Of a stretch of DNA of 64,000 bases, positions 1 through 14,255 are shown piece after piece. Source of the DNA: Candidatus Polarisedimenticolia bacterium. Its GTDB lineage: Bacteria; Acidobacteriota; Polarisedimenticolia; Gp22-AA2; AA152. The notes under the pieces were generated by a model. That model did not search any database and had not been told where the DNA came from. It was given only the letters and a program-made list of their open reading frames with translations. The stretch covers positions 1 to 64,000 of the forward strand of contig DASYRE010000011.1 in the NCBI GenBank assembly GCA_036004685.1, in the 5' to 3' direction. The first letter of the stretch is position 1; every line of letters starts with the position of its first letter. Made by a program: the position numbers and the translations under genes.

Positions 1-124
1 AGGCTTTGTCCCCCAGGATGCCGACGCGGTACACCTTCCCGGCCGGCTGCGCGCCGGCGGCGAGGGGCGCGGTGAGCATTAGGAGGGCGAGAACGGTGCT
101 GAGCCTAGCGACACCTGGTTTCAT
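1..124 (-). CDS. ABC-type periplasmic substrate-binding protein, N-terminal part (cut by window edge)
   Basis: The minus-strand reading frame starts with ATG at 124-122, preceded by an AAAGGAC ribosome site. It encodes a signal peptide (MKPGVARLSTVLALLMLTAP then an ALA-type cleavage region) and then QPAGKVYRVGILGDKA, where the window ends. The signal peptide plus RVGIL opening is typical of the ABC_sub_bind family of putative ABC transporter substrate-binding proteins. It is the first gene after the attC at 153-245 and so is a cassette gene. Only about 41 residues are visible, so the substrate and completeness are unknown. A second, broken copy of the same kind of opening lies one cassette upstream (247-675). 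Confidence 0.7.
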   Translation of the reverse strand, partial: MKPGVARLSTVLALLMLTAPLAAGAQPAGKVYRVGILGDKA

Positions 125-152
125 ATTGTCCTTTATGGACCGCCAGTAGTCT

Positions 153-245
153 GCCCAACGACCCGCGGTTGAGCGGCCGGCGACCACCGCCGCTCGCATG
201 AAGCAGCCCGGTTGCTCGCCGGTCCGCTCCAACCGCTTGTTAGGC
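153..245 (-). other. attC recombination site (93 bp)
   Basis: Read on the minus strand, the site begins with GCCTAAC (245-239) and ends with GTTGGGC (159-153). The inner arms GCGGTTGGAGC and GCTCAACCGC pair with a single extrahelical base, the hallmark of attC bottom-strand recognition. The upstream gene remnant stops two bases before the site. Confidence 0.85.
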
Positions 246-246
246 G

Positions 247-675
247 TCACGCCGATATCGTTGAGAGGGTCCAACGTAGCAGCGAGTCTGGATATCTCGC
301 GATCATCGTCTCCATGACGTAAACGTCGTTCCTCAAGACTTCGCCGTTCCAGGTATCCGTATCTACGTACCGCCATTACTGGGCTCGAACGGACCCGGTT
401 CGGCGAAGCCCTCGATCGATTCGACCTTTGCGTAGTTCTCGGCGATGCTCTCGGGTGTCAGACGTGCATCGTAGAAGCCAGGTCCCATGACGATAGCGAT
501 ACGCTGGATTACGCCGGAAGGCTTCAACCGGTGGCGTAGCGCGTGCCAGCCCGACTGTCAGGACTCCGATCCGGACGGCCTTTGCTGGCGGCTGCGCATC
601 CGAGGCGAGCGGCAGAGCGAACAGGAGGACTACGACGGCGGTAGCGAGCTTGGTCACGGCGAACCTCACAACCAT
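247..675 (-). pseudogene. Decayed chimeric cassette gene: binding-protein start joined to unrelated tail
   Basis: From ATG 675-673 the first 53 or so codons encode a signal peptide and AKAVRIGVLTVG, like the start of an ABC_sub_bind binding protein. After VEAFR the frame loses sense. A neighbouring frame then carries a plausible protein tail (IAIVMGPGFYDARLTPESIA onward, ending near 368), and a third frame carries WNGEVLRNDVYVMETMIARY onward to a TGA at 249-247, two bases before attC. The last two pieces could be one protein tail split by a frameshift. I see a deletion or fusion plus at least one frameshift. What the tail belongs to is not certain; the first part resembles the end of a short-chain dehydrogenase-like protein. 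Confidence 0.55.
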
Positions 676-753
676 CCCTCCCGGGGAAGCACTCTACCGA
701 ACACTACCTCAATGATCGCTTCAGTCCTCATCGGTGGTCGGCTCCACTTGTCT

Positions 754-823
754 GCCGAACGTCGGCGCTGAGCGGTCGGGGCGAGCAACGCGAGCCCCGG
801 TCCGCTCCAGCGGCTTGTTCGCC
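754..823 (-). other. attC recombination site (70 bp)
   Basis: Minus-strand reading: GGCGAAC (823-817) at the start and GTTCGGC (760-754) at the end. The arms GCTGGAGC and GCTCAGC pair with one extrahelical base, around a central stem GGGGCTCG/CGCCCC. It follows the stop codon of the metallophosphoesterase gene by 23 bases. Confidence 0.8.
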
Positions 824-846
824 GCCTCACGAGCGCGCGGACGCGA

Positions 847-1899
847 CTACTGTCGTGGGGTGACATTCGCGGCAACCAGACGCGGCCGGAACGTGAACAC
901 GTTCGGATCGCTGGCGTCAACCGTGACGTGGACCCAGTGGTGATACGGAGAACCAAACGTCTCGACGCGCGTAAAGTTTTCGAGTGCCGGAGTCACCACG
1001 GTGCCACGCACAGGTCTCGGACTCAGCGGCTTGTCAATCCTGAAGAAGTGGCTGTCCCCGTGGACCAGCACCACCGGCTTGCCGAAAGCCGCGGCCTCAT
1101 TCTGAAGATTCAAACGGAGATCGGCATAGCCACTGGGATTCTGCGGCGTACCCGGAAATGGTGGAAACTCAGGAAAGGGGTTCGCCTGTTGCAGGATCAT
1201 GATGGCTCGGCTGTGGCTAGCCCTTGCATGATCGAAACCCTGCCGCTGCCAGGCGACATTGGCCCGGGTGCGCTCGGCGTATTCCGCGTCGCCCTCGGGA
1301 GTGCGCCCGAGCCCGTTGTTGCTGCCTGTGACGTGCAACGTGAGAAAGGTCACGCCGCCCATATCCCAGCGGACGTTCTCTCGGTACTTGGCGAATGCGG
1401 CATCCGGACCCTGACTTTGTCGGGTCAGCGCGAACGTGCGTTGGCCGAGCGTGTGATTGCCGTCGAAGAAGACCGTCCTCAACTTGGCGAGGCGCTCGAT
1501 CGGATCGCCGCCGGGGACAGCCGGCTCGTGGCAGTCGGTCCATTCGTTGTCGCCTGGGGTGTACACGAGTGGGTGGATCGACGCGCGGAACTGCGCCAAG
1601 CGTCGGGCCCAGAACTCATTCGTGCAGCTGTATCGCGGCGAGGACAGATCGCCAACATGAACGATGAACGCGAGCCCAGTGTTCCGATTCAGATCAGCGA
1701 ACACGTTCTCGAGCCATGGTTCCTCCCGGGGGAAGTAGCCAAGGTCCCCGATGAGCGCGAACGTGAACCCAGGGCCAAGAGCGGCCGGAGCCTGGCTCCG
1801 CGCCAGCGTGGACGCCGTGACGACGAATCCGACGGCGACCGCGACCACGGCGACGACGAACAGAGTCGCTCGCACGCCTCCTGGCTTCAAGGTCTTCAT
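847..1899 (-). CDS. Membrane-anchored or exported metallophosphoesterase (cassette gene)
   Basis: A 350-residue protein that starts with ATG at 1899 after GGGAGACGG. Residues 10-35 form a hydrophobic signal or anchor segment. The calcineurin-type metallophosphoesterase motifs follow in order: IGDLG, VHVGDLS, PGDNEW, then a late VHGDSHFF supplying the metal-binding histidines. The family hydrolyses phosphomonoesters or phosphodiesters with two metal ions. The exported location suggests action outside the cytoplasm, but the substrate cannot be told. It sits between two attC sites and fills its cassette, so it is mobile cargo; at about 1 kb it is long for a cassette gene. Confidence 0.85.
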   Translation of the reverse strand: MKTLKPGGVRATLFVVAVVAVAVGFVVTASTLARSQAPAALGPGFTFALIGDLGYFPREEPWLENVFADLNRNTGLAFIVHVGDLSSPRYSCTNEFWARRLAQFRASIHPLVYTPGDNEWTDCHEPAVPGGDPIERLAKLRTVFFDGNHTLGQRTFALTRQSQGPDAAFAKYRENVRWDMGGVTFLTLHVTGSNNGLGRTPEGDAEYAERTRANVAWQRQGFDHARASHSRAIMILQQANPFPEFPPFPGTPQNPSGYADLRLNLQNEAAAFGKPVVLVHGDSHFFRIDKPLSPRPVRGTVVTPALENFTRVETFGSPYHHWVHVTVDASDPNVFTFRPRLVAANVTPRQ

Positions 1900-1995
1900 G
1901 AGCCGTCTCCCGTACTTCGCAATCGGAATGGTCCTCGAACTGGGGTTGAGCGTTGCGACCTCGATAAGGGCTCCACGTATCAGACACTCCCCGGC

Positions 1996-2055
1996 GGCGA
2001 ACGCCTGAATTAAGCCGCGCCGCGAAGCGGCGTCGGCTTGAATGAATTGTTAGGC
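1996..2055 (-). other. attC recombination site (60 bp)
   Basis: Minus-strand reading: GCCTAAC (2055-2049), then arms TTCAAGCCG and CGGCTTAA around a GCCGC-TTCG-CGGCG stem-loop, ending with GTTCGCC (2002-1996). The 60-bp size and the extrahelical base fit a classical 59-base-element. The final R' box departs from GTTRRRY in its last bases. If read through, the site gives the peptide SFKPTPLRG, a known translation of this kind of attC. Confidence 0.85.
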
Positions 2056-2085
2056 CGCACTTGCCGCGCCATTTCAGTGTCGCCC

Positions 2086-2427
2086 TTAGGATTGTGGGTC
2101 GAACCCGAAGACGCGCAGTTCTTGGTCGCACCGACAGGCCTTGGCGATACGCGCCGCCCACGCGATGGCCTCGTCGCGCGAAGGCAGTTCCAACACGGTG
2201 AAGCCGCCGTCGAGCGTGGGCGCCCAAGGATAGCCACCCATTGCAACCGTGCCGTCAGCCGAGACGAGCACGGGCGGTACGTCTTCGTCGATTCCGCCGC
2301 CGAAGACGTAAACACCGGCGGCTTTCGCCTCATCAATCACAGCGTGCGCGTCGCGGCCTACCGCTCCCCATTCGCTATCGGGCACAACCATTGCCGCGCT
2401 TGGAAAAGAGATCAGGTATTTGGCCAT
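2086..2427 (-). CDS. YCII-related domain protein (cassette gene)
   Basis: A 113-residue protein with an excellent ribosome site (CAGGAGGAGCACC) before ATG 2427. It starts MAKYLISFPSAAM, has VYVFGGGIDEDVPPV and a DGGFTVLELPSRDEAI segment, and ends in a cysteine-containing region. This matches the YCII/DGPF family of small dimeric alpha-beta proteins related to YciI, whose physiological roles are mostly unknown. It occupies one complete cassette between the attC sites at 1996-2055 and 2473-2540. YCII-type proteins are frequent cargo in environmental cassettes (general knowledge). Confidence 0.8.
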   Translation of the reverse strand: MAKYLISFPSAAMVVPDSEWGAVGRDAHAVIDEAKAAGVYVFGGGIDEDVPPVLVSADGTVAMGGYPWAPTLDGGFTVLELPSRDEAIAWAARIAKACRCDQELRVFGFDPQS

Positions 2428-2472
2428 GGTGCTCCTCCTGGGAATTGACGGCGGTCGTGAAACGTATGTGCG

Positions 2473-2540
2473 GCCTAACGCATAGCCGTTAACCCGCGGG
2501 CGCGCCCTTCGCGACCGTCGGGTTCAAGGGCTGGTTCGGC
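2473..2540 (-). other. attC recombination site (68 bp)
   Basis: Minus-strand reading: GCCGAAC (2540-2534), arms TTGAACCCG and CGGGTTAA with the extrahelical C, a GC-rich central loop, and GTTAGGC (2479-2473). It lies 7 bases after the stop of the upstream gene (2548). Confidence 0.85.
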
Positions 2541-2547
2541 TGCGTGC

Positions 2548-3369
2548 TCATGGCGTGTCGCTGCTAATTCGAATTTCAAGTACAACTTTCGTCTCAGCCC
2601 CACGGTCAAACGACTTTTTCCGATGACGCTGGAGTACGTAGTCAATTTCGACCCGTCGTCCGGGAGCGTAATTGCGAGCGAGATTTACAGAATTGGCTTC
2701 GCGAGTCCATTGCGAAAGCTCACCCTCCCCAGACAGAACCTCGAACTCGGGCCAATCATTCATGCTGCCCATGTAAACGCGTTCGATAATGCCGGAGGTA
2801 GTGTGTACGGGAAGATCGCCGTTATCGATCTTGCCCCACCACTCAGCCGAGCCTATGAGTCCATGAGTGGGCTCGATCCCGAATTCCTGAGTGGTGAGCG
2901 TCGCCTGCCGAATCGTTCCCAGCCTGTCTGGATCGTCCTTCAGGCAGTAAATGGTCTTCATAGGGCCAGCTACCGGTCGCGGCAAGGGAAGATTTGTGAC
3001 CGGGTCGATGGTTCCCATGAACGCCGGACCCGGATAGGCTGCCACGACGCGAATAGACCCGACGATACTCCCGTTGAGACCAAGAAGGTGTTCGGCCGGC
3101 ACCCACAACTCCCGATGAGAACTTCCACCGACAGTGCGCACAGGATATTTCTGAGCGAACGTGTCCTTCAGCTCGAATTCAGTCACGAACCCCGCAAATC
3201 CTGAAAATTCGTCCCTCGTGTTCCAATCGCGGGCGATTTGCTCCGCGTACGATCGTTCTAGAACCGGGTAGAACACTTCCTGTCCGGCGAGGCGGGGCGG
3301 GAAAGCGCGAAACCTGCTCCCCATAATCAAATGAAGTTCTGATAGACCCACGGGTCTAAAGAGGATCAC
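2548..3369 (-). CDS. Two-domain hypothetical protein (cassette gene)
   Basis: A 273-residue protein with GTG start at 3369 and a GAGGTAAT ribosome site. No signal peptide is present. The first 110 residues (MILFRPVGLSELHLI, FYPVLERSYAEQIARDWNTR, GFAGFVTEFEL) resemble a domain often annotated as ADP-ribosylation/crystallin J1-like; I know this from annotation habits, not from a catalytic motif I can verify. From residue 138 a second block (KTIYCLKDDPDRLG, GLIGSAEWWGKI, VYMGSMNDWPEF, KSFDRGAETK) resembles small stand-alone hypothetical proteins. It may therefore be a fusion of two cassette genes. The function is unknown. It is the first recognisable cassette at the right end of the array. Confidence 0.7.
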   Translation of the reverse strand: MILFRPVGLSELHLIMGSRFRAFPPRLAGQEVFYPVLERSYAEQIARDWNTRDEFSGFAGFVTEFELKDTFAQKYPVRTVGGSSHRELWVPAEHLLGLNGSIVGSIRVVAAYPGPAFMGTIDPVTNLPLPRPVAGPMKTIYCLKDDPDRLGTIRQATLTTQEFGIEPTHGLIGSAEWWGKIDNGDLPVHTTSGIIERVYMGSMNDWPEFEVLSGEGELSQWTREANSVNLARNYAPGRRVEIDYVLQRHRKKSFDRGAETKVVLEIRISSDTP

Positions 3370-3383
3370 CTATTACCTCGTTC

Positions 3384-3692
3384 GCCGAACTAGTCTTGTG
3401 CCGATCTCCGATATTTTGTAGTCGCGCAAGCCTGCAGCATCTGCCGGGTATTCCACGGGACGGGTCCGGAGCCCAAGGGAATGATGATACAGGCGTTCGT
3501 GGGAAGGATGCGGCGATAAAAAAATAGGGACGGACGATAGAGCCTGTCTCGAATAGATTTTGGGGCTGACGGGCGTGTTGAAAAAGGCGAAGGGCATCGG
3601 GAGCGCGGAGGAGTGTCCAGTTCCCGGACTATGGCTGAACATGGGGGTAAATGGAGCCTCTCCAGTGAAGGCTGGGTGAACGGCTCCGATCC
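3384..3692. other. Gene-poor junction to the right of the cassette array
   Basis: On the minus strand GTTCGGC (3390-3384) lies 15 bases before the first cassette gene and could be the crossover box of an attI or of a lost attC. No matching R'' arm or palindrome is found within 150 bases to the right, so I do not call it attC. The rest of the stretch holds no convincing gene. A 30-codon minus-strand tail ending at 3373 could be a gene remnant, and GTGTTGAAAAAGGC near 3570 resembles some insertion-sequence ends but has no partner. Confidence 0.4.
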
Positions 3693-5102
3693 GTGGGTGC
3701 TGAGGAAACTATAGTCCGGGGAGGGGCGGGGCGCAAGAAGTGGTGCTGGAAGGGCGCAGCAGGCTTCAACAGGAGAGGCCGCGAATCCTCTCCCACATTA
3801 AAAGTCGCACGGCCGTATCCGCACCGGGCTCTCGCGGCTCCGCCGCCTGGCCCGGGGCACGGTGCCCTTGGGACACTTGGGACGTTCGGCTCCTACCTCG
3901 GCAGTGGCGGCTGGGGAAATGCGGGTTGGGACGGGTGCATTTACTACATCCCCGAAAGTGAGATCAGCTGCAGTGGACGCCCCGACCTCGGAGTCGTGGA
4001 TTACGTGATCGCCGGAATCGATCCCGAGTCTCCCAACGTGGCCAGGATGGCGGCGGTCTCGGTGGACTTCAACGAGTTGTTGGATGCGTACGTTCTCGAC
4101 AACGCCGGTGCGCAGCCGGTGGATGGAGACCCTTGCGGAGGGGACGCTGTGTCCAGCATCTCAGGTCCCGTGAACTGCATACCGATCCCGGTACCGGCCA
4201 TCGTCGCATCGACCGGCGGCGAGGCGCCCACCCTCACGCTGGGAATCGGGGAGGTGTCTGGAATTCCGCTCCTCGATGACTGCCTCATCGCCGAGACCCG
4301 CGCCACGAACTGCCCGAGGAACCTCTATGCGGCTCGCGTCCTCATGTACCAGCGCGCTTCCTGCGCCACCGGAACCGGCGCCGGGCTCGACCTGAGGGCC
4401 TTTCTTTACCTCCCGCCTCCGCCGGCGGGCACCCTCGCGGTGCTGGCGAACTGGCGAGTATTCAGCGTGGAGGACCAGAACCTGAACCAGGCTCTGGACG
4501 CCGGCGAGGACGGATCGAACGGCGGCGAGGTCGACGGCCTGTTGGACCCGTTGCTCATTGGAGGGACCGCGGCCACCGAGGTCACTGTTTCGCTCCCGAC
4601 CATGCCGGGCGCCACGGACTGTCTCTACTTCGCCCTCGCCATCGGTCTGGACAACAACCGCCTGTTCGTCGATCAACCGACCAACACCATCGTCGGCGAG
4701 ATGGTCTTCAGCCCGATGGTCTCCGTCAACCCCACCCCGATAGCCCTCAATGTCCCGCCCCCGTCCGACACGGTACTCTCGATCACCGCCCGCAAATCCG
4801 GCGGCACAGTCACCGTCGCCTGGACCAGCGGGAACGAGCTGGCCACGGCGGGGTTCAACGTCATCGGGGTCGGCAAGAACGGCAGTGAGAGGAGACTCAA
4901 TGCCAGCTTGATCCCGGCCAAGGAGGGAACGACCGGGCTGGGCGCCGATTATGGTGTGACCTTCGAGACGGCCCGGCTCAAGGGCTCCAGCGCCGTCATC
5001 GTCGAGCTGGTCAAGTTCGACGGTTCCACTCAGCGCTTCGGGCCGGTCCTCGTATCGGGCAGGGCCGCCTGCGACGGCCGCTGCCCCGGGCCATCGGACT
5101 AA
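3693..5102 (+). CDS. Secreted or surface hypothetical protein, probably 5'-truncated
   Basis: The open frame runs 469 codons from a GTG at 3693, but the first 55 or so residues are arginine- and glycine-rich and unlike a protein start, and no signal peptide is present. Natural-looking sequence begins near GTLGTFGSYLGSGGWGN. The middle has paired cysteines and acidic repeats (EDQNLNQALDAGEDGSNGG) that suggest an extracytoplasmic, possibly calcium-binding protein. The end (VTVAWTSGNELATAGFNVIG) is like the beta-sandwich modules seen before the C terminus of exported proteins in Acidobacteriota-type genomes. I infer that the 5' end was lost at the junction with the cassette array or by a frameshift. 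The function is unknown. Confidence 0.6.
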   Translation: MGAEETIVRGGAGRKKWCWKGAAGFNRRGRESSPTLKVARPYPHRALAAPPPGPGHGALGTLGTFGSYLGSGGWGNAGWDGCIYYIPESEISCSGRPDLGVVDYVIAGIDPESPNVARMAAVSVDFNELLDAYVLDNAGAQPVDGDPCGGDAVSSISGPVNCIPIPVPAIVASTGGEAPTLTLGIGEVSGIPLLDDCLIAETRATNCPRNLYAARVLMYQRASCATGTGAGLDLRAFLYLPPPPAGTLAVLANWRVFSVEDQNLNQALDAGEDGSNGGEVDGLLDPLLIGGTAATEVTVSLPTMPGATDCLYFALAIGLDNNRLFVDQPTNTIVGEMVFSPMVSVNPTPIALNVPPPSDTVLSITARKSGGTVTVAWTSGNELATAGFNVIGVGKNGSERRLNASLIPAKEGTTGLGADYGVTFETARLKGSSAVIVELVKFDGSTQRFGPVLVSGRAACDGRCPGPSD

Positions 5103-5147: not shown

Positions 5148-5234
5148 TCATCATTCTACCGTCGGCTCTCCGAAATCTCGCCATGCGGCGGGTTGACCCG
5201 CGGCGGGACTTCCGCCGTCGGGTCCAAACCGCTC

Positions 5235-6986
5235 CTAATTCTTCGGCTTCGCCGGGGCCGCCGCCGGGGACTTCCCGGCCGGAGCCTTCGGCGGATCCCC
5301 CTTGCCGGAGCCGGACGCGACGTCGGGGGCGAGACCCTGAAGGTATCCGAGGGATCTCAGCACCTCGCGCAACCGGGGATCGGGGGAGGGAGCGCCGGCG
5401 TCGGGGACGAGCTGCGGCTTCCCTTTGACGAGCCGCCATCCCTCCAGGAAGTCCCTTCTCTTTTGCGCCAGGATGGGAGCGGCCATGTAGACGCTCCGCT
5501 TCTCCCACCCCGTCGGATCGTTGGCGCGGAAGAACTCCGCCTCCGGCCGGGCATAACCTTGCGGCGCCTCTTCGTAGAGGATCAGCTTGGTGGGCATCTC
5601 GCAGATCATCGAGGCGCGCCCGGTCGGCAGCGCCCCGGCGGGGGAAGTCTCGGCGAAGGCGGGCCGCTGCGTCTCCTTGCGGGTGGCAACCGTCGGCTCG
5701 ACGTTGCGCTGGATCCCCTGGAGGCCGGATGGCACGGGGAGGCCCATCATGCTCAGGAGCGTCGGAAAGAGGTCGACCGTGTCGCAGGTCCGGCGCATCT
5801 GGTCCGCCCTCGCCAGGATTGCCGGGTAGCTCATGACGACGGGGACGCGGAGCGCCGAGTCGTACAGGGAGGCGCCGTGCCCGAACAGCCCGCGCTCGCC
5901 GAAATCCTCCCCGTGCGTCGACGTCACGACGAACAGCGCCTTCTTCCAGTAGCCGCGCGAGTTGAGCGCGTCCCGCAGCGAGCGCAGTTGGGCGTCGTTG
6001 TAATAAAGGGCCCCGTCGTAGACGTTGCGGGCGGCGCGGGCGAACCGATCGGGGTCGGCCTTCAGCGCTTTCAGGTCCGCGACGGTCGTCATGCCGAGGT
6101 TGCCCGGTCGGATCCGCAGGAGCCTGGCGCGGACTTCCGAGTACCACTTGTATTCGGCGTCGTCGGTGAAGCGGCGCCCTTCCGGGGCGGGGGCGCCGAA
6201 CGGTTCGAGCGGATCGCCGGAAAGGACCACGACGAAGACGGGGGCCGGAGAATTCCGCCGGTCGAGCCAGGCCAGGATGCTCCGGTTGAGCGTCGCGGAG
6301 GTCTCGCCGGGACCCCGGGGCGGCGCCGGACCGAAGGGTCCCGGGATCTCCTCGATCCAGTCGAAGCCCTGGTCGAGTCCGCTGAGCGCCCCGACAAGCG
6401 GATGGGCCGAGAAAAGGGCGGTTTGGTAGCCGTTTTCCCTCATCACTTCGGCCAGGGTCTTGGCGGACGCGGGCAGGCGATCGCCCGCTTTCTGGAGGCC
6501 GTGCGCGGACGGGTAGAGGGAAGTGAGAATCGACGCCACCGACGTCACGGTCCAGGGCGAGACGGAGTAGGCGGCGAGATAGGTCATCCCTTCCCCCATC
6601 AGCGTCGAGACATTCGTCATGGTCATCCGATCGTAGCCGTGGGCCGGGAGCTCGAACGCGCCCAGACCGTCGATCAGGTAGAGGAAGAGATGGTGCCTCG
6701 AGCCGGGCGGCGCGGCGAGACGCTCCCCTTGGGGCCGGGGAGGGGGCGCTGCGATTTTCTTTCCCTCTTGATCCAGGAGAACGGGGGGCGCGGGGTCCGC
6801 GCCGTTCGCAGAGCCTTGGGCCGCGGCGGACAAGGGAGCTTCGCCCGGCGTCGCCGCCGGCTCGCGGGACGGGCTGGGAGCTTTCGCAGGGGACGCCGCC
6901 TTTCCGGCCCCCGCGGGGAGCGCCATGACGATGACGAGAAGCAGCGCCGGCGGAAGGCGCAGACGGCGACGAGGGACGGCCCTCAC
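5235..6986 (-). CDS. Sulfatase-like (alkaline phosphatase superfamily) exported hydrolase
   Basis: A 583-residue protein. GTG at 6986 overlaps the stop of the upstream cysM-like gene by 4 bases (GTGA) and gives a clean signal peptide (RRRLRLPP ALLLVIVMALPAGAG); a longer frame upstream is a shadow. The core has the sulfatase/phosphodiesterase fold signatures: LYLIDGLGAF for metal binding, a nucleophile region SPWTVTSVASILTSLYP, STHGEDFGERGLFGHG and LFPTLLSMMGLP. The CxPxR motif needed for formylglycine is absent and the nucleophile position aligns to threonine, as in LtaS-like and other sulfatase-like transferases or hydrolases. It is thus probably not a formylglycine-dependent sulfatase. Alanine/proline/lysine-rich tails flank the domain. 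It is the last gene of the sulfur-carrier operon. Confidence 0.8.
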   Translation of the reverse strand: MRAVPRRRLRLPPALLLVIVMALPAGAGKAASPAKAPSPSREPAATPGEAPLSAAAQGSANGADPAPPVLLDQEGKKIAAPPPRPQGERLAAPPGSRHHLFLYLIDGLGAFELPAHGYDRMTMTNVSTLMGEGMTYLAAYSVSPWTVTSVASILTSLYPSAHGLQKAGDRLPASAKTLAEVMRENGYQTALFSAHPLVGALSGLDQGFDWIEEIPGPFGPAPPRGPGETSATLNRSILAWLDRRNSPAPVFVVVLSGDPLEPFGAPAPEGRRFTDDAEYKWYSEVRARLLRIRPGNLGMTTVADLKALKADPDRFARAARNVYDGALYYNDAQLRSLRDALNSRGYWKKALFVVTSTHGEDFGERGLFGHGASLYDSALRVPVVMSYPAILARADQMRRTCDTVDLFPTLLSMMGLPVPSGLQGIQRNVEPTVATRKETQRPAFAETSPAGALPTGRASMICEMPTKLILYEEAPQGYARPEAEFFRANDPTGWEKRSVYMAAPILAQKRRDFLEGWRLVKGKPQLVPDAGAPSPDPRLREVLRSLGYLQGLAPDVASGSGKGDPPKAPAGKSPAAAPAKPKN

Positions 6987-7912
6987 AGATCCCACAGCCT
7001 CGTGCTGAAGTAGCGCTCCCCCAGATCGGAGAAGACGGTGACGATCCGCGCCCCGGGGGCGTCCCGGGCCACGGTCAAAGCCGCGCTGAGATAGGCTCCC
7101 GAAGATTGTCCCACGAACAGGCCGCGCCGGGCGAGACTGTGGCACAGCGCGTAGGCCTCCTCGATGGTCACTCGGATCCGCCGGTCGATCACGCCGGCAT
7201 CGAGAATCTTCGGCACGATGTCTTCCGGCCTCTCCAAGGGCTTGAGCCCTTCGATGCCGGGAAAGGACTCGGGGACGACGCAGACGACCTGGATCTTCGG
7301 GTCGTGGGACTTGAGGCGGCGGCCGACCCCGGTGATCGTCCCGCCGGTGCCGATGCCGGCGACGAAGTGGGTGATCCGGCCGCCGCTCTGCTCCAGGATC
7401 TCCTCCGCCGTCGTCTCGTAGTGCGCTCTCCAGTTCTGCTCGTTGGCGTACTGGTCCGGCATGAAGTAGCGGGGGGGATCCGATTCGGCGATCCGGTGCG
7501 CCTCCCGCAGCGCCGCGTCGTACCCCTCCACCGGATCGGTCTCGACCAACTGCGCCCCGTGGGACAGGATTCGCTTCTTCCGCTCGACCGAAGCGTTGCC
7601 GGGGACGACCAGCTTCACGTCGAGACCCATCATCGAGCCGATCATGGCGTAGGCGATTCCGGCGTTGCCGCTGGAGGAATCGATCAGCGTCCGGCCGGGG
7701 GTGAGCTCGCCGGAGAGCGCGGCCTGCAGAAGCATGAACAGGACGGGGCGATCCTTGATCGAGCCGCCGGGGTTCGTCCATTCCGCTTTGGCGAGGACCT
7801 CGGAGCCGTTCCGGGGGAGCTCCGGCACCTCGACGCGGAAGAGGCGCGTTCCCCCAATCAGGGCGAGGGACGGATATTTCTCGAGGAACGGGCGGAAGCG
7901 CTCGGGAAGCAT
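6983..7912 (-). CDS. cysM: CysM-like cysteine synthase (PLP-dependent)
   Basis: A 309-residue fold-type II PLP enzyme with ATG at 7912, 14 bases after the previous gene. The PLP lysine lies in NPGGSIKDRP, the substrate loop in SSSGNAGIAYA and the phosphate-binding loop in GIGTGGTITGVG. The family forms cysteine from O-acetylserine or O-phosphoserine and a sulfur donor. Its placement directly after a ubiquitin-like carrier/E1 fusion and a JAMM protease mirrors the CysM-CysO-Mec+ route of Mycobacterium, in which thiocarboxylated carrier protein supplies the sulfur. I infer that this enzyme uses the carrier in the same way. Cystathionine beta-synthase-type activity is the main alternative. Confidence 0.88.
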   Translation of the reverse strand: MLPERFRPFLEKYPSLALIGGTRLFRVEVPELPRNGSEVLAKAEWTNPGGSIKDRPVLFMLLQAALSGELTPGRTLIDSSSGNAGIAYAMIGSMMGLDVKLVVPGNASVERKKRILSHGAQLVETDPVEGYDAALREAHRIAESDPPRYFMPDQYANEQNWRAHYETTAEEILEQSGGRITHFVAGIGTGGTITGVGRRLKSHDPKIQVVCVVPESFPGIEGLKPLERPEDIVPKILDAGVIDRRIRVTIEEAYALCHSLARRGLFVGQSSGAYLSAALTVARDAPGARIVTVFSDLGERYFSTRLWDL

Positions 7913-7926
7913 CGCCCCGGCGCCCC

Positions 7927-9378
7927 TCAGCGCGCCGCGCCGGCGGGAGCGGCGCAGAAGGCCTCGTAGTCGATGAAGCCGGGGAATCGCGCGCCGTCGC
8001 CGCAATAGGCGCAGCCCGGATCGCGGCGCAGCCGCAACGTCCGGAACTCCGCCTTGAGCGCGTCGTAATGGATCAGGCGCCCGATGAGGGGATCGCCCGC
8101 GCCGAGGAGCAGCTTCACCGTCTCCACCGCTTCGAGCAGCCCGATCACGCCGGGCAGCACGCCCAGGACGCCGGCGTCGGCGCAGGAGGGGGCCAGATCG
8201 GCGGGGGGCGGCTCCGGGTAGAGGCAGCGGTAACAAGGCCCTTCCGGCGGCTTGAAGATCGTCACCTGGCCCTCGAAGCGATAGACGCTGCCGTGGACGT
8301 TCGGCTTCTTCAGGAGGACACAGGCGTCGTTGACCAGGTAGCGAGTGGGGAAGTTGTCGCTGCCGTCGACAATCAGGTCGTAATCCCTGAAGATCTCCTC
8401 GACGTTGGCGCTGCTCAGACGCGCCTCGATGGCGTTCACCTTGATGCCGGGGTTCAGGCCCAGGATCGTCTTGCGCGCCGATTCGGTCTTGGGCATTCCG
8501 ACCCGATCCACCGCGTGCAGAATCTGCCTCTGGAGATTGCTCTCGTCCACGACGTCGAAATCGACGATGCCGAGCGTCCCGACGCCCGCGGCGGCCAGAT
8601 AGTAGGCCGCCGGCGAGCCGAGTCCCCCGGCGCCGACGAGGAGAACCTTCGCGGCGAGCAGCTTGAGCTGTCCCGTCTCCCCCACCTCCGGGATCATCAG
8701 GTGACGGCTGTAGCGCCGGCGGTCCGCCTCGGAAAGGGTCCGGGGGACGACCACCTCGTTTCCCTCGTTGCGCCACTGGTTGAACCCGCCCGACATCGAG
8801 GCGACGTTCTCGTACCCGAGGCGCTGCAGGCTCTCGGCCGCGAGGAGGGAGCGATTCCCGCCGGCGCAATAGGCGACGATCGGGGTCTTCCGGTCGGGGA
8901 CCAGCCCTTCGATCCGCATCTCGAGAAAGCCGCGCGGGATGGGGACGGCGCCCGGGAGGTGGCCTTGCTCCACTTCGTCCTTCTCGCGCACGTCCAGCAG
9001 CACGAAGGGCTCCCGGCGCTGCCGGCGGGACTTCACCTCGGAAGGCACGACCTCCTTGACGGTCTTGCGGATCTGGTTCATGAGATCCCGGATGGTCGGG
9101 GCCGCCCCGCCGGCGATCGCCGGCACGATCGCCAGCACGTCGCCGTCCTTCACCTCGGAGTCGAGTCCCTTGAGATGGCGGATCTCCTCCTCGTTCAGGA
9201 AAAGGTTCACGAAACGCCGGAGCTCCCCTCGATCGTCGCAGAGCCGGGCGCGGATTCCGGCGCATTCCTCCTCGAGGCTCGCCAGGACCTCCCGGACGGT
9301 GCGGCCCGCGACGCGCACCTCGTCCCGGCCCTGGGTCAGGGGACGCAGCGGCGTGGGAATCTTGACCTGAATCGACAT
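7927..9378 (-). CDS. Sulfur-carrier protein / rhodanese / E1-like (MoeB-ThiF) fusion
   Basis: A 483-residue protein, ATG 9378 after AAGGAGGAAAGC. Residues 1-91 are a MoaD/ThiS/CysO-like ubiquitin fold ending in the diglycine 90-91 (VPAIAGG). Residues 100-215 are a rhodanese with catalytic Cys171 in CAGGNRS. From about 225 to the end is a MoeB/ThiF adenylyltransferase with the ATP loop GAGGLG (249-254), VDFDVVDESNLQRQ and zinc pairs CYRC and CAYC. E1 enzymes adenylate the carrier C terminus and rhodanese supplies persulfide sulfur, so all steps of thiocarboxylate formation are on one chain. Unusually, the diglycine is internal, so it must be exposed by cleavage or the carrier role passed to another protein. 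MoeB with an uncleaved accessory domain is the alternative. Confidence 0.9.
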   Translation of the reverse strand: MSIQVKIPTPLRPLTQGRDEVRVAGRTVREVLASLEEECAGIRARLCDDRGELRRFVNLFLNEEEIRHLKGLDSEVKDGDVLAIVPAIAGGAAPTIRDLMNQIRKTVKEVVPSEVKSRRQRREPFVLLDVREKDEVEQGHLPGAVPIPRGFLEMRIEGLVPDRKTPIVAYCAGGNRSLLAAESLQRLGYENVASMSGGFNQWRNEGNEVVVPRTLSEADRRRYSRHLMIPEVGETGQLKLLAAKVLLVGAGGLGSPAAYYLAAAGVGTLGIVDFDVVDESNLQRQILHAVDRVGMPKTESARKTILGLNPGIKVNAIEARLSSANVEEIFRDYDLIVDGSDNFPTRYLVNDACVLLKKPNVHGSVYRFEGQVTIFKPPEGPCYRCLYPEPPPADLAPSCADAGVLGVLPGVIGLLEAVETVKLLLGAGDPLIGRLIHYDALKAEFRTLRLRRDPGCAYCGDGARFPGFIDYEAFCAAPAGAAR

Positions 9379-9402
9379 ATCCGCTTTCCTCCTTGCTGCG
9401 AT

Positions 9403-9867
9403 TTACGACCCGGCGATCCGGGACGGCTCCTCGTGAAAGATCCCGTCTCGGAGCACCCACGAGCGCCAGGAGGCCACGCGGCCCGCCGCGACTTCGAGGA
9501 TGACGTAGGACCAGGACTCGGAGGCCTGCCAGATCTCCTCGGCGCGCTGCCGGTCGGTCTCAGAGGGCCGCGAGGGATGATCGGGATGCGAATGGTAGAC
9601 GCCGACCACCTCCAGCCGGCGAGCCTGGGCCTGGCGCTCGATCCGGATGTAGTCGAGGGGATCGAGATCGTAGCGATCCGCGGCGCGCTCGCGGTTCAGG
9701 TTGCGGGCGGGGTGAATCTCGAGGACGTTGCGGACGCTCCTTCCCTCCTCGTAGCTGCCGATGAGGAGGCCGCACACCTCGTGCGGATAGCCTTCTTCGC
9801 CGTGACGCTTCAACCGATCGAGCCCCCGCGCTTCCAGGATCAACACGTCCGCCTCACCGCCGCGCAC
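9403..9867 (-). CDS. mec: Mec+-like JAMM/MPN+ metalloprotease
   Basis: A 154-residue single-domain protein. The JAMM zinc site is complete: Glu30 in PHEVCGLL and His92-x-His94-x10-Asp105 in YHSHPDHPSRPSETD. In Mycobacterium the homologue Mec+ releases cysteine from the CysO-cysteine adduct. Here the gene is first in an operon with the carrier/rhodanese/E1 fusion (24 bases downstream) and the CysM-like synthase. It could also cut the fusion after the internal diglycine; this second role is my inference. Iyer and Aravind's group described bacterial JAB/E1/ubiquitin-like operons of this kind, so the association itself is known. Confidence 0.9.
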   Translation of the reverse strand: MRGGEADVLILEARGLDRLKRHGEEGYPHEVCGLLIGSYEEGRSVRNVLEIHPARNLNRERAADRYDLDPLDYIRIERQAQARRLEVVGVYHSHPDHPSRPSETDRQRAEEIWQASESWSYVILEVAAGRVASWRSWVLRDGIFHEEPSRIAGS

Positions 9868-9932
9868 GCAACTATCCAGAAATGCTTGAGAAGCGAGTAT
9901 AGCACAGGCGTTTCGGCGCCCTCTTGGAATGG

Positions 9933-9958
9933 AAAAGGGGCAGGCTTGCGCCTGCCCC
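9933..9958 (-). terminator. Rho-independent terminator
   Basis: A perfect 9-bp stem GGGGCAGGC/GCCTGCCCC with a 4-base loop is followed on the minus strand by TTTTCC. It lies downstream of tRNA-Lys and just upstream of the JAMM protease gene, so it should end the tRNA transcript. Confidence 0.8.
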
Positions 9959-9991
9959 GTCCCGACTCCGCAATGCCGGAGCGATGAATCC

Positions 9992-10067
<76 letters not shown>

Positions 10068-10154
10068 GTCTCTTCGAAAAAGGGGCGCATTCTATTACGC
10101 CCGCGAAAGCGGCGTCAACGGCTTCCAGTGAGAAGACCGCTCTGGAGATAAGGT

Positions 10155-10230
10155 TGGGGTGAGTGGAGGGTTTCGAACCCTCAACCCCCTGGGCCACAGC
10201 CAGGTGCTCTGCCGTTGAGCTACACCCACC
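10155..10230 (-). tRNA. tRNA-His (anticodon GTG)
   Basis: The anticodon loop is CTGTGGC in a CCTGG/CCAGG stem, with T arm GGTTCGAAACC. The extra 5' G opposite discriminator C, typical of tRNA-His, is encoded and CCA is encoded. Confidence 0.95.
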
Positions 10231-10252
10231 GCACTGAGGAACGATCGCATTC

Positions 10253-10330
10253 TGGCGCGCCTGGAGGGATTTGAACCCCCGGCCAACGGCTTAGAAGGCC
10301 GTTGCTCTATCCGGGCTGAGCTACAGGCGC
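10253..10330 (-). tRNA. tRNA-Arg (anticodon TCT)
   Basis: Acceptor GCGCCTG/CAGGCGC, anticodon loop CTTCTAA, T arm GGTTCAAATCC, discriminator G and encoded CCA. It is the first member of the three-tRNA cluster. Confidence 0.95.
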
Positions 10331-10348
10331 CTGAGGCTGAGACCCCCA

Positions 10349-10378
10349 ACTCTACCACGCGCGCGCAGCGAGTGTAAA
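10349..10378 (-). promoter_or_regulatory. Sigma-70-type promoter of the tRNA-Arg/His/Lys cluster
   Basis: On the minus strand TTTACA (10378-10373), an 18-base spacer, then TAGAGT (10354-10349). The -10 ends 19 bases before the tRNA-Arg 5' end. Confidence 0.55.
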
Positions 10379-11068
10379 TCACGGCGCGGACCGACTGAAG
10401 CGCTTCCCATCGCCGGGGAGCTGGACGATCTCGCGATGCGCGTCGAACCAGCCCGCCCAGAAAGGAAACAGCCAGGTGGCGGCGCCGACGAGGGCGAGCG
10501 CCCGCACGCCGGGCGGCGGGGTGCCCTGCGCGGCCCCGGCATAGGCGGCCGTCAGGAAGAGGACCAGGGACCAAAAGCCATAGGTTCCCGCCCGGTCGCG
10601 CGGGCGCGTCACCGACGCGTAGAGCCAAACTGCGGCGGCGAACATGGCGCTCTCCACGAGAACGGTTCCGGCGATCGAGTTCCAGAGACCCAGGCCGACG
10701 CGCGGCCCGCCGGGGTAAAGCGGCATGTCGGGACGGTGCATCACGACGTCGAGAAACCAGTGGCTGAGGACTCCGGCGGCGATCACGACGGCGCCTTCGC
10801 GGTATCGGGAGAAGGCGAAGTATCCAAGCGCGAAAGCGGCCGCCCACCCCGCCGCCGCCAGAAGGCTGTGCGACCAGGGATAGCTGACGAATTCCAGCGG
10901 CGTGAACCGCGTGTCGCCGGGAGCGATTCGGACGCGCTCCCAGCCCGCCAGCACGAACAGAGGCCAGAGGAGATCGAGAAGCAGCGGCGCCGCCATCAGA
11001 GGCCCGAGCGACGCCTTCGGGGCGATCTTCTTCGAGGCGAAGCCGACGGCGAAATGGCCGATGAACAT
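10379..11068 (-). CDS. YdjM-like (DUF457) membrane-bound metal-dependent hydrolase family protein
   Basis: A 229-residue integral membrane protein with about five or six hydrophobic segments. The family signature histidines and aspartates are seen in GHFAVGFASKK at the start, PWSHSLLAA, and LSHWFLDVVMHRPDMPL in the middle. The family is related to LexA-induced YdjM and annotated as a putative membrane metal-dependent hydrolase, with no proven substrate. It lies 27 bases downstream of the ABC-F gene on the same strand and may be co-transcribed with it. Confidence 0.75.
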   Translation of the reverse strand: MFIGHFAVGFASKKIAPKASLGPLMAAPLLLDLLWPLFVLAGWERVRIAPGDTRFTPLEFVSYPWSHSLLAAAGWAAAFALGYFAFSRYREGAVVIAAGVLSHWFLDVVMHRPDMPLYPGGPRVGLGLWNSIAGTVLVESAMFAAAVWLYASVTRPRDRAGTYGFWSLVLFLTAAYAGAAQGTPPPGVRALALVGAATWLFPFWAGWFDAHREIVQLPGDGKRFSRSAP

Positions 11069-11095
11069 ACGGCGACTCTCCTCTCCGTGCCGGAT

Positions 11096-13084
11096 TCAAG
11101 AGCTCCGCGAATCCTCACGCTGCAGATCCGAGGTCGCTTCGTCCCACTCGTCGTAGAGATGAGCCAGCTCGATCTCGATGCTCTTCTTCTCCTCGCCGAG
11201 GGCGCGGGCGACTCCGGGCTCCTTGTAGGTCTCGCCCGCGGAGAGAAGGGATTCGATCTCCTTGAGGCGCGTCTCGTGCGGCAGGATCTTCTCCTCGAGC
11301 CGGACGATCCGGTCGCGATAGATTTTCAGCTCGCGCCCGCGCCGGTTGCGCGCCTCGGCGTCGAGGCGGCGCTGTTCGCGCGCCGGAGGCGCGGAGGACG
11401 GCGCCTTCGACGCGCCTCGGGAGGGCGCGGTGGAGGCCGACCCCGTCGCCGCCGCGCGCGCCCTGGCCGAGGGCGGGACCGCCGCGGGAACCTGCGACGC
11501 GGCCAGGTAATCGTCGTACCCGCCCCGGGTCAGAAGGAGGCGGCCCGCCTGGAAGGCGGCGACGCGGGTCGCCACCTTGTTGATGAAATAGCGGTCGTGC
11601 GACACGAACAGCAGCGTTCCGCTGAATCCGGCGAGCGCCTCTTCGAGCGCTTCGCGCGTCGGCAGGTCGAGATGGTTCGTCGGCTCGTCGAGGAGCAGGA
11701 AATTCCCGGGATCCAGCGTCAGGCGCGCCAAAGCCAGGCGGTTCTTCTCGCCGCCGCTGAGGACTTCGACCTTCTTGAAGACCTCCACTCCCGAGAACTG
11801 GAAGATTCCCAGAAGGGAGCGAAGCTGACCCACGGTCTTCGAAGGCGCCCAGGCCTGCATCTCCTCCAGCACCGTCCGGCCGGGGGTCAGGCTCTCGAGG
11901 ACGTGCTGCGCGAAGTAATGCAGGATCACCTTCTCGCCCAGCTCCAGCGTGCCGCCGTCGGGGCCGAGGCGCCCGGCGATGATCTGGAGCAGGGTGCTCT
12001 TGCCGCAGCCGTTCGGGCCCACCAGGGCGATCCGATCGCCCCGATGGATCTCCAGATCGACGCCGTCGAGGACCCGGTTGGCGCCGTAGGCCTTCCTGAT
12101 TCCGGTGAGAATCGCCACGCGCTGCCCCGATCGCGCCACCGCCGGAAAATTGAACCGCCACGAGAACTCCTCCGACATCGTCTCGGTGCGCTCCATCTTC
12201 TCCAGCATCTTGATCCGGCTCTGGACCTGCCGGGCCTTCGTCGCCTTGTAGCGAAATCGCTCGATGAACCGCTCGATCTCGTCCACCCGATGGGCTTCCT
12301 GCGCCGCCTTCTTGGCGGCCAGCTCGCGGGCTTCCTCTTTCTGGAGGCGAAAGCGATCGTAGTTGCCGGCCCAGACGCGGACGCGTCCGCTGTCCACTTC
12401 CGCGATCGAGCCGGCCAAGCGGTTCAGGAAAGTCCGATCGTGCGAGACGATGATGAGCGCGGAGGGGGAATCGGACAGGAACGACTCGAGCCACCCGATC
12501 GCCTCGAGGTCGAGGTGGTTGGTGGGCTCGTCAAGCAAAAGGTAATCGGGACGCCGGAGCAGGAGCGCCCCCAGGGCGGCCCGCATCCGGTAGCCGCCGG
12601 AGAACTCCCTGAGAGGCCGGGCGTGATCCTCCGGCGCGAAGCCGAGACCGCCGAGGATGATCTTGGCGCGGATCTCCAAATCGAAGCCGCCGGCGACTTC
12701 GAAACGGTGCTGGACGTCCCCGGAGAGGCGGGTGAGGCTCTCGAGCCTCTCTCCCGTGGCGGTGGCCATTTCGTGATGCAGCCGCTCCAACTCCTTTTCG
12801 AGCGCCGCCACTTCGGCGAAAGGCTCTAGCAGGGCGTCGAGAAGCGTCCCTTCCGGAAGGCGCGCCCCCTCCTGGGGGAGATAGCCGAGCGCAAGATGGC
12901 GCGGGACGTCCACCTGTCCCTCGTCGGGCTCCTCGAGACCGGCAATCAGCCGGAGGAGCGTCGTCTTGCCGGCCCCGTTCGGGCCGACCAAGCCGACGCG
13001 CACCTGGACGGGAATCGACCAATCGACCCCTTTGAGGACCTCATGGACGCCGTAGTTGCGAGCGACCTTCTGCAGACGAATCAT
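11096..13084 (-). CDS. ABC-F family ATPase (ribosome-associated type)
   Basis: A 662-residue protein with two ABC cassettes and no membrane domain: first Walker [10 protein letters not shown], signature [21 protein letters not shown]; second Walker [10 protein letters not shown], signature [21 protein letters not shown] linker rich in charged residues (the P-site tRNA interaction motif region) joins them. The C-terminal 130 residues are an alanine/serine linker and a coiled coil as in Uup and YheS. ABC-F proteins act on the ribosomal E site to rescue stalled translation or resist antibiotics. Which subgroup this is cannot be decided here. It is preceded by tRNA-Arg and tRNA-Pro on the same strand. 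Confidence 0.92.
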
Positions 13085-14058: not shown

Positions 14059-14255
14059 CCGTACACCGTCGGCTTCATTATCTTGTCATGCTCCGCATAA
14101 GCCGCGGCTGGCGAGCCACGACGCCTCTCTTGCCAGGCGCGAACATACCGTACGCCGTAGGCTTCATGTGTATCACGCTCCGCATAAGCCGCGGCGGGCC
14201 AGCGACGATGCTTCCTGCCATTCGCGAGCGTAACGCACGCCGTCGGCTTCATGCG
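14059..14255. repeat. 87-bp imperfect tandem repeat, about 2.3 copies
   Basis: The core CCGTACRCCGTMGGCTTCAT occurs at 14059-14078 and 14148-14167, with a variant at 14233-14252, giving periods of 89 and 85 bases. Between the cores, CGCTCCGCATAAGCCGCGGC (with a one-base variant in the first copy) and a GCCAGG-type segment are also repeated. The whole unit is therefore tandem, not just the core. It fills the intergenic space between yqgE and the ychF promoter. Each unit contains short self-complementary stretches (GCCGCGGC). Read on the minus strand the units stay open in one frame, but I see no ribosome site and do not call a gene. Confidence 0.75.

Follow-up and report, generated by a model that had tools for sequence, protein, structure and literature searches.

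A gene cassette array without an adjacent integrase gene, headed by a copy of the resident attI site, in an Acidobacteriota genome

Sedentary chromosomal integrons with an inverted integrase gene (intI) are found in Treponema denticola and in the Planctomycetes. The integrases of this layout form a sub-clade of IntI, and an acidobacterial attC model exists (PMC8352920), with integrons as such already known from the Acidobacteriota (PMC8618304). Clusters of attC sites lacking integron integrases (CALINs) are described as occurring at roughly the same frequency as complete integrons (PMC9024848), and off-target insertion, intI loss and rearrangement have been proposed as their origins (PMC8618304, citing Cury et al.). 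In Xanthomonas, cassette clusters lie at several chromosomal loci, with intI elsewhere or inactivated (PMC12444791). The origin of CALINs has so far mostly been argued from absence, that is, from a lost intI or from off-target insertion.

Here we describe an integrase-less array in a 3.84-Mb draft genome of 62 contigs, in which the arrays all reach contig ends. The window, the whole stretch of DNA that was analysed, comprises bases 1–64000 of contig C11, and its position 1 is the end of that contig. The "chromosomal edge" of an earlier note on this DNA is thus a mere contig end. That note had also taken the host for an Acidobacteriota-type bacterium, which agrees with the assignment of G002, a genome of the same family, to the Acidobacteria, and had called such arrays less often described in these hosts. 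An intI survey detected the gene in 26 of the 41 genomes of the class. Chromosomal integrons are therefore common in the class, and the presence of an array is in itself ordinary. With several attC sites in a single orientation and no intI nearby, the C11 array resembles the CALINs described in PMC9024848 and PMC8618304, and its four sites place it within their definition (at least two attC, no intI nearby). It differs in that CALINs, as described there, are defined by attC sites and the absence of intI only, whereas the C11 array has at its head an attI that is cognate to the resident integron.

The array runs on the minus strand from position 3389 to position 1, where the contig end cuts it off, and is recognised by four attC sites, the cassette junctions and the attI. 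For the attC sites we used a covariance model, R1, trained on 11 attC sites from four related genomes and from C60, the contig that carries the resident integron, with the window excluded. Since MAFFT set the 3' boxes out of register when given complete attC sites, we cut the training sites manually to one common length, which calls for some caution with the model; compensatory changes occur in 12 of its 20 pairs, and none of 500 shuffles scored equally high. The search, which the earlier note had proposed as a check on its four one-way attC sites with R''/R' boxes, recovered all four on the minus strand at 28.6–43.7 bits, each with these boxes and an attC fold: 2473–2540 (cassette 1, 28.6 bits), 1996–2055 (cassette 2, 43.7 bits), 754–823 (cassette 3, 32.6 bits, from a separate R1 run) and 153–245 (cassette 4, 39.7 bits, from a genome search that scored 150 of 8879 candidates). 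The outcome that the note had named as refuting its reading thus did not occur. The site at 754–823 is missing from the genome search because of this limit on scored candidates. The site at 153–245 reached its full score in the genome search only, with a partial match of 17.9 bits in another R1 run, and folds at −31 to −35 kcal/mol under DNA parameters. Scores on the opposite strand, where listed over the whole model, were lower (18.5 and 11.5 bits).

The idea that these palindromes arose by chance, or are REP-like chromosomal hairpins and not attC sites, draws on the presence in this genome of a REP-like repeat whose stem resembles that of attC. This repeat has no R boxes, however, whereas the four window sites carry R boxes that match the cassette starts, and the idea is refuted. 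The REP-like palindrome itself (TTGGACCCGnCGG...CCGCGGGTCAA) occurs at 5185–5235 (minus strand) and in at least 13 further copies, including on C9, C17, C25, C36, C41, C43, C48, C50 and C51. Its stem and bulges are those of the C60 attC sites (TTGGAGCCGACGG...CCGCGGCTCAA), with a compensatory change; it may bear on how attC sites arose, or the resemblance may be convergent. An attC-like hairpin at 14181–14253 (minus strand), in ordinary chromosome, likewise has no R boxes and scores 20.0 bits over model positions 13–49. Among the matches listed, an attC-like pair on C60 (25099–25158 and 27314–27376, minus strand) and a lone attC-like site on C31 (175242–175298, plus strand) lie away from any attI core. 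Two attC sites at the start of C15 (241–300 and 568–627, plus strand) resemble the window attC at 1996–2055 in sequence, and possibly represent the distal end of the window array.

Integron integrases cut the R' box between G and TT, so a cassette start should complement the R'' that belongs to its own attC and not the adjoining R'. The starts of the four window cassettes match their own R'' at 7, 7, 7 and 6 of 7 positions, as do three on C60 and C46 at 7/7, and random re-pairing of starts and R'' boxes among the seven cassettes gave an equal total with p 0.002. These G^TT junctions with own-R'' matches point to integrase action. Cassette 1 (2479–3389) begins with TT at position 3389, which makes the boundary that the earlier note placed at about 3390 exact; its start GTTCGGC matches its own R'' GCCGAAC at 7/7, and its open reading frame (2548–3369, 273 aa) belongs to no family. 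Cassette 2 (2002–2478, 7/7) has an open reading frame at 2086–2427 and cassette 3 (760–2001, 7/7) one at 847–1899, while the gene of cassette 4 (159–759, 6/7) is broken into short frames (376–675 and 363–527). Only the start of cassette 5 (1–158), with an ATG at 123, precedes the contig end; all five lie on the minus strand. The cargo names proposed earlier hold weakly or not at all: the YCII-like match of cassette 2 (19.5 bits) and the calcineurin-like phosphoesterase match of cassette 3 (Metallophos, PF00149, 18.6 bits) both fall under the Pfam cut-offs, and no Pfam family among the cassette genes supports a "binding protein". The change in composition across 3390, where a GC shift was to be looked for, is modest.

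At the head of the array lies a simple attI site (3388–3421, minus strand), whose core GATCGGCACAAGACTAGTT at 3406–3388 has its crossover G^TT at 3390/3389; the end of the site coincides with the crossover of cassette 1. The earlier reading of a cassette array without an adjacent integrase holds, but this cognate attI had been overlooked. A search of the whole 3.84-Mb genome with the core pattern GATCGGCACAANNCTAGTT gave exactly three occurrences (C11:3388–3406, C60:6330–6348 and C46:911–929), and all three copies head arrays with the same crossover. The C60 counterpart, GATCGGCACAAAGCTAGTT, stands at the same point of the first C60 cassette, beside the sole intI of the genome, and matches the C11 site at 17/17 fixed core bases; when these two attI regions were compared by gapped local alignment the result was no better than shuffles, and the match rests on the core compared without gaps and on the number of copies in the genome. 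In G001, a genome of another genus of the same family, the core is present on C180 and on C245, each time with one mismatch and close to a contig end. The same search found no core within two mismatches in ten other relatives, and viral contigs contained none. In relatives within the class, the corresponding site lies ~160–250 bp past the intI stop; in G004, a relative of the order with an intact intI, the attI is a different one (12/17 core bases).

An ordinary CALIN might also have formed by off-target insertion at an attG-like chromosomal site, its attI match being due to chance. Among the proposed CALIN origins is such insertion by an IntI encoded at a distant locus (PMC8618304), and Xanthomonas commonly has CALINs at places other than its intI locus (PMC12444791), but the agreement with the resident attI at 17/17 fixed bases, at the exact crossover, and three exact array-head copies against ~0.0005 expected (7.7 million positions / 4^17) make this course of events very unlikely. 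We give slightly less credence still to an assembly artefact, in which the C60 integron array was misjoined to C11 or the array is a strain variant. In draft genomes, assemblies tend to break within arrays, which raises the number of apparent CALINs (PMC9024848), and contig ends here fall within arrays; nevertheless, the C11 and C60 attI cores differ in 2 bases, the DNA upstream of them is unrelated, the junction is the exact crossover, and the C60 attI has an array of its own behind it. It also appears unlikely that the junction at 3390 is chimeric, as it coincides exactly with an attI crossover and as two further contigs have arrays headed by this attI. We also considered C11 and C60 as a single array and rejected this, since both run distally off contig ends in the same orientation, with unrelated DNA upstream of their attI cores.

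The attI copies differ in how much accompanying DNA they share. C60 and C46 have ~185 bp upstream of the crossover in common (z 21 versus shuffles), arranged as two near-identical boxes with diverged DNA between them, and the two G001 copies likewise show conserved boxes and a diverged middle (z 30). Each copy is closer to its genome-mate than to the copies of the other genome (z 9–10), and the C46 and G001 modules begin cleanly near the same 5' point. Conserved boxes round a diverged middle would fit purifying selection or co-evolution with one integrase. The C11 attI shares only ~34 bp (29/34 with C46, by eye), and no similarity was found further upstream (z 0.4–0.6), so we regard it as a simple attI without the accessory part. 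In the first C46 cassette the R'' of the attC matches the cassette start, although R1 did not report this attC.

About 460 bp separate the C11 attI from a 5'-truncated chromosomal gene (3885–5102, plus strand), whose homologues align only from ~base 3885; the N-terminal part of the best homologue, ~105 aa, is absent at C11. A search for the lost 5' part elsewhere in the genome returned only a paralogue on C48, and the truncation with loss of this part implies that the locus was rearranged. The flank at 3391–3900 has nothing over 27 bases in common with relatives, whose homologues of the flanking gene are non-syntenic, so that an empty site is not definable; an Rfam search returned tRNAs only. 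One alternative is that a second complete integron once stood at C11 and that its intI was deleted, leaving attI and array behind. The truncated flanking gene and an attI module reduced to its core would indicate DNA lost on that side, in line with the loss of intI proposed as an origin of CALINs (PMC8618304). However, a family HMM at maximum sensitivity detected no intI remnant beside C11 (upstream of 3421), C46 or either G001 site, and repeated random deletions would not yield the clean 5' start shared by the C46 and G001 modules. We therefore consider intI deletion at C11 unlikely, though it deserves some weight.

The genome's single intI lies on the minus strand of C60 in two parts (12177–11119 and ~6700–6533), followed by the attI (6330–6348) and the cassettes, all on the same strand. 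A search for intI proposed in the earlier note accordingly has a divided outcome: none on C11, where the array stands without a neighbouring integrase as claimed, and one interrupted copy on another contig. Of the features of a complete integron, C11 has an attI at the array head and has no intI next to it; in G001, no intI match was found at E 1e-40. With the 3' end of intI directed towards attI, C60 and its relatives in the class resemble the inverted-intI chromosomal integrons, from which the present system differs in that the window array has attI and cassettes with no intI and in that the C60 intI is interrupted. Family similarity in the C60 intI frame stops after HTFRHSFATHLLQ and is taken up again by a 32-residue segment 4.4 kb further on. 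The intervening DNA (C60 ~6700–11119) is a 4.4-kb TOTE-type element that splits intI after the codons HLLQ. It encodes a protein of 839 aa that combines a TOTE-type primase domain with a helicase (PF22548, 319 bits), along with double HTH, DUF433, DUF5615 and CcbP-like proteins; no recombinase was seen within it. An element of ~91% DNA identity occupies the same intI codon in another genus (G002, contig C144), where the intI is only 71% identical to that of C60 and a second, diverged copy lies in tandem. The element junctions share CTGCAAG or CTCGAG, and the element looks as if it were site-specific, targeting intI. In the assembled sequence the insert parts the catalytic tyrosine from the remainder of IntI, so the integrase should be inactive; we infer that the C11 array would now be frozen.

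Taken together, we consider it probable that window positions 1–3421 constitute an attI-headed cassette platform without an integrase of its own, filled in trans by the integrase of this lineage. It consists of one simple attI followed by at least five cassettes with four attC sites. In the usual reaction a folded single-stranded attC is joined to a double-stranded attI (PMC4792948); here the lineage's own integron integrase would act in trans on the C11 attI, joining folded attC sites to it at G^TT, so that cassettes would enter at 3390. The C60 IntI, or its intact ancestor, may be inferred to have made the C11 insertions, and the shared attI at the heads of at least three arrays suggests that one now-interrupted integrase once served several separate arrays. 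This platform reading is supported by the attC sites found with R1, the cassette starts matching their own R'', the three array-head cores and the single split intI. Against it count the retention at C11 of ~34 bp of attI and not the 185-bp module, the broken state of the assembled intI, which makes present activity doubtful, and the draft state of the genome, into which a contig of a close relative may have been mis-binned. The attI may have reached C11 by duplication or translocation, or as part of a second integron minus its intI. More tentatively, and with rather less confidence than we place in the C11 platform, the family as a whole could run a multi-platform integron, in which attI sites dispersed over the chromosome, each with an array of its own, would share one integrase; a TOTE-type element inserted at a fixed codon would have switched this system off in two genera.

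Judged from its sequence, the C11 array appears to be more than an anonymous attC cluster, namely one of several dispersed attI platforms, which any integrase would have to serve in trans. The Xanthomonas CALINs are comparable in their dispersal; the available text of PMC12444791 discusses attG-type insertion and reports no duplicated attI, whereas the array heads here carry attI. A limited set of open-access integron papers, as far as their text was available, makes no mention of resident-attI copies heading integrase-less arrays; what looks new is the dispersal of cognate attI sites, together with the insertion of the element in intI. That arrays without an integrase start at resident-attI copies, and do so in two genera, makes a third origin of CALINs testable, namely the use in trans of dispersed attI platforms, and annotation tools should check CALIN heads for the resident attI. 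If this is true, an integron would be not a single locus but a network, its docking sites sharing one integrase.

Two further observations concern the contigs that carry the other arrays. Several contigs, the C60 array included, break because of a shared insertion-sequence end with a DDE transposase, which is 93–100% identical among C60:1–125, C60:4455–4578, the right end of C60 and the starts of C34, C36, C40 and C51. On C46, the first cassette (226–906, minus strand) encodes an AbiU2-type HEPN protein (PF18734), likely the product of a phage-defence or toxin gene, and adjoins a chromosomal phage-tail baseplate hub gene.
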